Below, piece by piece: positions 27,594-32,570 of a DNA stretch of 47,719 nt (positions within the stretch are counted from its first letter, which is position 1; every line of letters starts with the position of its first letter). Both the position numbers and the translations under genes were made by a program. The stretch lies in NCBI GenBank assembly GCA_024275655.1, contig JAJRYR010000063.1:1-47719 (forward strand). Reading direction: 5' to 3'. The notes beneath the pieces were generated by a model. The model did not search any database. It saw nothing but the letters and a program-made list of their open reading frames with translations, and was not told the DNA's origin. Origin of the DNA: an archaeon. Lineage in GTDB: Archaea > B1Sed10-29 > WALL01 > WAMD01.

Positions 27594-27631
27594 CCTGTGA
27601 AAGACCGCGTGCATTTAAGGAACGACCTAGA

Positions 27632-30650
<3,019 letters not shown>

Positions 30651-30738
30651 GTCGTTCTTCCTCTGCACGCGGCCTTCATCAACATTAGGCCATCAGATTG
30701 GAACCCCGAGGATTCCAATCCTCATGTATAAAAAATGG

Positions 30739-30844
30739 TGGACCCGCCGAGACGTTCTGGCATCTTTCCTAACAGGAAAGTGCCCTTCGAACTCGGGACC
30801 TCGCGCGTGCAAGGCGCGCGCTCTTCCAGCTGAGCTACGGGCCC
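30739..30844 (-). tRNA. tRNA-Ala(UGC) with putative 33-nt T-loop intron (30753..30785)
   Basis: Acceptor GGGCCCG/CGGGTCC, anticodon loop CTTGCAC; T-arm CCGAG-TTCGAA-[33 nt]-T-CTCGG. Confidence 0.85.
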
Positions 30845-30893
30845 ACCACAAAAAGGCCTGCAAGCCCATTAGAGCCCCCAGTGGGAGCAAAGC

Positions 30894-32370
<1,477 letters not shown>

Positions 32371-32570
32371 CTGGCTATCCACGCACAACAGAGTACGCCG
32401 CAGAAATTAGCTTTTTACTCCCACTGGAGGAGTACTCTGGGCTTGCAGGCCTCAATCAGATTTGAGCATCCATACTCAAATCTTCATCAGCGAAATTCTT
32501 TCTGGGCCAAACCGGCCCATCACAGAAGGTGATCGCTATACAACGAAGCGTAATAGTTTTACTTGAACGT

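Follow-up and report, generated by a model that had tools for sequence, protein, structure and literature searches.

The interrupted tRNA-Ala gene of the rRNA spacer

The window analysed here is the entire 47,719-nucleotide (nt) stretch of contig JAJRYR010000063.1 from assembly GCA_024275655.1, which corresponds to contig C51 of a 710-kb archaeal draft genome (G000) that is 88% complete. Judged by its nearest named relatives, G005 (same order) and G015 (same class), this genome belongs in the Diapherotrites class. A single rRNA operon is present on the minus strand of the window, and all operon features given below are read from that strand. Its 16S rRNA (30896..32367; Rfam RF01959) and 23S rRNA (27630..30647; Rfam RF02540) flank a gene for tRNA-Ala(UGC), which places the tRNA in the rRNA spacer, as a first-pass annotation had stated. 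The T-loop of this gene is interrupted by 33 nt, and the sequence makes it very probable that the insert is a protein-spliced archaeal tRNA intron with a bulge-helix-bulge (BHB) junction at the noncanonical position 59/60.

The two halves of the gene occur in the normal order. The 5′ exon (30786..30844), recognised by sequence and a pattern match, comprises tRNA positions 1-59 (GGGCCCG...CCGAGTTCGAA) and is followed by the 33-nt insert (30753..30785; GGGCACTTTCCTGTTAGGAAAGATGCCAGAACG), placed by sequence and comparative register, and by the 3′ exon (30739..30752), which consists of T60, CTCGG, CGGGTCC, and A73. The CCA end is encoded 3′ of A73 (30736..30738). The insertion point thus differs from the canonical 37/38. 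In its intact form the gene is invisible to ARAGORN and reaches only 30 bits with the Rfam tRNA model. After in silico removal of the 33 nt, the acceptor, D, anticodon, and T stems are all complete and ARAGORN calls a tRNA-Ala(tgc), which bears out the earlier claim that the deletion restores the tRNA. The insert and its position, also proposed in the first-pass annotation, proved to be real, with exact exon boundaries and a register shared by the inserts of relatives. The exon letters alone would also fit a junction shifted leftwards by one base (TTCGA|GT); the junction TTCGAA|T is preferred because it agrees with the canonical BHB cut and because the tRNA-Pro(CGG) of the same genome has the intact T-arm CCGAG-TTCGAAT-CTCGG.

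An intact tRNA-Ala(UGC) elsewhere in the genome had been named as a finding that would speak against the intron. None was found in the 88%-complete draft, where a pattern search recovered the spacer gene only; this genome tRNA search was not exhaustive, as tRNA-Pro(CGG) was missed at first and later found with Rfam. The Ala-GGC and Ala-CGC genes of the same genome are uninterrupted and have ordinary T-arms. No T-loop insert was detected among the remaining tRNAs recovered from the genome, and no second copy of the 33-nt intron was found in it. Anticodon-loop introns are present in Met, Ile(UAU), Tyr, Arg-CCU, Trp, Ser-CGA, and Pro-CGG. The tRNA-Ile (L023, G000:C39) has a 37/38-type intron and the anticodon UAU, CAU being usual. 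The tRNA-Trp (L032:323-484, G000:C34) has a long intron with TGATGA and CTGA strings, a candidate box C/D guide comparable to those of other archaea.

The bulge-helix-bulge junction

The junction reads CCGAG-TTCG-AAG-GGCA-CTTTCCT-GTT-AGGAAAG-A-TGCC-AGAA-CGT-CTCGG, with one unpaired A in the 3′ intron strand. The central helix, placed by comparative register, is formed by exon bases T54-T55-C56-G57 (30788..30791) and the intron bases AGAA (30755..30758), giving three Watson-Crick pairs plus G57.A. It is bordered by a 5′ bulge AAG (30785..30787) and a 3′ bulge CGT (30752..30754), for which the register and the canonical BHB rule predict the cuts AA|G and CG|T; these would leave the T-loop TTCGAAT. 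The intron itself forms a hairpin (30759..30784; GGCA-CTTTCCT / AGGAAAG-A-TGCC) with the loop GTT, as judged by sequence and fold. The complete architecture of helix-bulge(3)-helix(4)-bulge(3)-helix is therefore present, with three of four central positions paired and an intron helix of 4+7 bp. The stems, bulges, and central helix drawn in the first-pass annotation hold, and their register is common to relatives.

Same-site inserts in relatives

A T-loop insert at the same place in the spacer tRNA-Ala was also detected in G003, G005, and G006 (same order), in G015 (same class), and in G034. Within the order of the window, the intron is thus present in G000, G003, G005, and G006 and absent in G004. 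A scan of 85,462 genomes with a strict pattern yielded 30 loci, the majority of which are spacer tRNA-Ala genes of Woesearchaeota with perfect 5-bp T-stems; such stems also flank many of the Diapherotrites inserts. Four candidates (L065, L069, L074, and L077) were rejected as chance matches, since their T-loop is intact and the pattern had picked up another acceptor-like string further downstream. L093 is questionable: its insert is 10 nt long, no 16S was seen close by, and its genome has two endonuclease genes. The first-pass annotation had regarded 59/60 introns as known mainly from Thermoproteales and one in an rRNA-spacer tRNA as unusual; both views need adjusting, since such introns recur in the spacer tRNA-Ala of both Diapherotrites and Woesearchaeota. 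In one relative (L044, G014:C3), the spacer tRNA-Ala has the anticodon GGC instead of UGC, and the UGC gene lies elsewhere (L112).

The register was compared across 31 inserts, including the Ala-GGC of G003 and the doubtful L093; some rows (L066, L071, and L076) are closely related, so the counts are not all independent. In the canonical register, the central helix has four of four pairs in 20 of the 31 inserts (19 of 30 without L093) and at least three pairs in 30. Each of seven alternative registers gave only 0-2 perfect helices, and 2000 trials with shuffled introns never produced more than 5 of them (mean, 0.8), as against the 20 observed. That the T-loop inserts of relatives have this register in common makes the insert more than a chance interruption. 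At exon base 57 and the intron base opposite it, 11 of the 31 have G-C and 8 have A-U; as read from the sequences, this switching is a covariation between exon and intron that would be relevant only if the BHB forms.

With regard to distribution, 18 of 383 genomes from the class of G043 (Woesearchaeota) match the intron-bearing pattern, a figure that reflects the strictness of the pattern and is not a prevalence. Likewise not a prevalence is the result for a draw of 104 genomes, in which the 5′ half was matched in seven, with an intron in two and without one in five. On a 16S tree of 33 rows, the intron is scattered across Woesearchaeota and its state changes at least four times by a fewest-change count, in which gain and loss are indistinguishable as the intron-less rows are few and partly chosen.

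T-loop introns in other tRNAs

Some Diapherotrites relatives have T-loop introns beyond the rRNA operon. In G003, tRNA genes for Gly, Phe, Ile, and Leu share one intron start (TTCAAAAAGAAGGGTTGCACCC...), present in seven near-identical copies; the inserts that could be delimited at both ends measure 49 to 106 nt. The family (TTCAAAAAGAAGGGTTGCACCCTTTCTAAACC...) occupies at least seven tRNA genes of this genome (loci L191-L197; also L175, L178, and L185) and is absent from the other genomes of the class at up to 3 mismatches. It appears that an intron has spread here into a single site common to these genes. Although G003 is 92% complete, the tRNA model picked up only 10 of its tRNAs, which agrees with heavy interruption. 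In addition, a tRNA-Ala(GGC) located outside the rRNA operon of G003 (L115, G003:C21) apparently contains three introns, in the D-arm, anticodon loop, and T-loop.

In G005 (LH_S9), T-loop introns of 14, 15, 36, and 40 nt were observed in Thr-GGT and three other tRNAs (L171, L172, L183, and L184), and the intron of its spacer tRNA-Ala is 13 nt long and has no intron helix; some of the other G005 introns are also very short, with no clear intron helix. Probable D-arm introns were seen in tRNAs of Diapherotrites relatives (L041 of G006, L173, L174, L176, L179, L180, and L181).

The splicing endonuclease

The genome of the window contains one PF01974 gene (G000:C9:2320-2832; 127 bits), a count that is limited by the draft, as a second endonuclease gene could sit in the missing 12%. 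Its 170-residue protein keeps the Y/H/K catalytic triad, and query residues 18-166 align with Methanocaldococcus jannaschii EndA (1A79), the only gap being one residue long; the gene content suggests that the protein would act as a homotetramer. Of 19 genomes of the class, 16 yielded a PF01974 gene, as did 21 of the 24 genomes picked by the intron scan, in each case as a single copy except in G016 (L109 and L110) and G063 (L141 and L142), where two genes each, unlike in relatives, may encode alpha and beta subunits.

It was reported that the Crenarchaea-specific loop (CSL) has 15-18 residues and the ARMAN-specific loop (ASL) 11 residues (PMC12397907). No insertion of either size was seen in the N-terminal half of the aligned proteins from the window's genome and its relatives, and none appears in the alignment with 1A79. 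In reviews, alpha-4 enzymes are described as narrow and noncanonical introns are tied to enzymes with a CSL or ASL (PMC6379350, PMC4033280). Noted exceptions are three thermophilic methanogens as well as Korarchaeum, which has the loop in an alpha-2 enzyme (PMC4033280, PMC3218864); because of these, a loop-less enzyme together with a noncanonical intron is not the first departure from that scheme. It is likely that alpha-type enzymes need a near-canonical BHB and not a given tRNA position, and most of the introns described here have such a BHB. The 13-nt Ala intron of LH_S9, without an intron helix, is the most difficult to reconcile with this view. The link between unusual-position introns and CSL/ASL enzymes can thus be put to the test in these archaea, since a loop-less alpha-type enzyme is the sole one found in most T-loop-intron genomes: either a near-canonical BHB suffices wherever it is placed, or the enzyme has another route to broad specificity.

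The rRNA processing stems and a proposed order of events

Two further motifs of the endonuclease type are encoded in the same operon. The 23S processing stem, with its 5′ strand (...TGCA-GAGG-AAG-AACGACCTA) at 30648..30674 and its 3′ strand (TAGGTCGTT-CCTT-AAA-TGCA...) at 27603..27629, can form a strict BHB with the central helix GAGG/CCTT and the bulges AAG and AAA. The 16S processing stem can form a near-BHB with the helix AGAG/CTCT and the bulges TACT and AAT; its 5′ strand (GGCCTGCAAGCCC-AGAG-TACT-...) is located at 32418..32451 and its 3′ strand (...-CTCT-AAT-GGGCTTGCAGGCC) at 30855..30887. Both were recognised by sequence and fold. Such BHB stems have a role in archaeal rRNA processing. 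With the motifs of the tRNA-Ala, the 16S stem, and the 23S stem on one transcript, the endonuclease would be expected to have at least three sites of action on this pre-rRNA.

In the proposed scheme, the spacer tRNA-Ala would be transcribed within the pre-rRNA, and the invariant T-loop bases T54-T55-C56-R57 would provide one strand of the central helix and the intron end the other. The single alpha-type endonuclease, presumably a homotetramer, would cut at AA|G and CG|T, and a ligase would then join the exons to give the T-loop TTCGAAT. As the T-loop would be open before splicing, folding of the tRNA and modification of its T-loop should await the endonuclease, and release from the pre-rRNA by RNase P and RNase Z probably does so as well.

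Alternative explanations

Several points weigh against a BHB intron. The lone-strand minimum-free-energy structure predicted by RNAfold is not the BHB (-22.2 vs -19.0 kcal/mol), and the central helix has a pair probability of about 1%; this counter-evidence is weak, because the operon's 23S processing BHB is likewise not the minimum-free-energy structure (-34.6 vs -32.5). The fourth central pair, G57.A, makes the motif slightly relaxed, though the enzyme type has been described as narrow. The missing 12% or so of the draft could also hold another Ala(UGC). The metagenome-type nature of the draft and the low scores in standard ARAGORN and Rfam searches would suit a random insert, brought about by misassembly or carried by a tRNA-Ala pseudogene in decay. 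Such an origin is very improbable given that all four stems are intact once the 33 nt are removed, that the draft yielded no other Ala(UGC), and that inserts at the same position with a shared BHB occur in many independent assemblies. It is likewise very improbable that the insert is retained as an enlarged T-loop tolerated in a working tRNA, its hairpin serving only pre-rRNA folding or processing. The unspliced RNA does give a good cloverleaf fold in which the T-arm is extended, but few parts of a tRNA are as constrained as the T-loop, and an enlarged loop would have no need of an intron end that is complementary to bases 54-57 in the BHB register across species. As for a self-splicing intron of group I or II, group I introns are known in DPANN rRNA genes (PMC6125680), but 33 nt is far too short (a group I catalytic core generally exceeds 200 nt) and no such Rfam match is present in the window, so that this origin can practically be dismissed. 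A circularly permuted tRNA gene was also considered and rejected, as the 5′ half is encoded before the 3′ half. The 59/60 BHB intron of the spacer tRNA-Ala is real and almost certainly functional.

A different question, compatible with a BHB intron, is whether the intron is kept by selection, through protection of the T-loop, a preferred site of integration, or through endonuclease-dependent release of the tRNA, rather than being neutral or selfish. That it recurs in two lineages at a single site of the spacer tRNA-Ala, and that the transcript carries further endonuclease-type motifs, would agree with selection, and an anti-integration role has been suggested for split and intron-containing tRNAs (PMC3218864). 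On the other hand, the spacer tRNA-Ala of close relatives (G004, G011, and several Woesearchaeota) has no intron, which is therefore dispensable, and the spread of like introns to many tRNAs in one relative suits selfish or neutral gain. Selection thus seems a rather unlikely, if tenable, explanation.

Relation to known systems

The kind of intron and its position are already known. Noncanonical introns of Thermoproteales and other archaea are likewise short, located outside 37/38, and spliced at a BHB junction, with up to three introns in some tRNAs and signs of spread among tRNAs (PMC3218864, PMC4033280, PMC8450103), whereas here there is one alpha-type gene without the loop and the tRNA lies inside a DPANN rRNA operon. 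A 59/60 T-loop junction with a BHB also occurs in the permuted tRNAs of Thermofilum pendens (iMet and Tyr) and Cyanidioschyzon merolae (including Ala(UGC)) (PMC3218864); in the window, by contrast, the 5′ half precedes the 3′ half, and what separates them is an ordinary intron. A T-arm intron is reported for the nuclear tRNA-Ile(UAU) gene of C. merolae, which differs in being eukaryotic, in the tRNA concerned, and in not lying in an rRNA spacer (PMC9602550). ARMAN-2, with its epsilon-2 endonuclease and relaxed introns, is another small-genome archaeon with unusual tRNA introns, but its enzyme has three units and the ASL (PMC12397907), in contrast to the 170-residue single alpha protein without a loop found here. 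The latter resembles the alpha-4 endonuclease of M. jannaschii (1A79; PMC6379350) in length, domain make-up, and catalytic triad; that type is listed as narrow, and here it would serve a noncanonical intron. In the open-access papers searched, which leave out most subscription journals, no precedent was found for this lineage, for a host tRNA in the rRNA spacer, for the combination with a loop-less alpha-type enzyme, or for spread of the kind seen in G003. The gene also shows why an essential tRNA-Ala may escape a standard tRNA finder in genomes of this kind.

More generally, it may be, with about even chances either way, that BHB introns in Diapherotrites and Woesearchaeota commonly land in the T-loop and can be cut there by a plain loop-less alpha-type endonuclease. 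An intron end of the form YGAA-NN would suit nearly all tRNAs, because T54-T55-C56-R57-A58 is common to nearly all of them. The spacer tRNA-Ala would then be the most widespread host seen so far, and the same intron would have spread to at least seven tRNAs in one Diapherotrites genome.

Other observations

A search of a plasmid collection with the spacer returned bacterial tRNA-like stretches only. Elsewhere in the genome of the window, a C/D-box sRNA-like element (L031:1836-1890, G000:C38; sR1, 34.9 bits, below the gathering score) is located near the tRNA-Tyr and tRNA-Thr genes.
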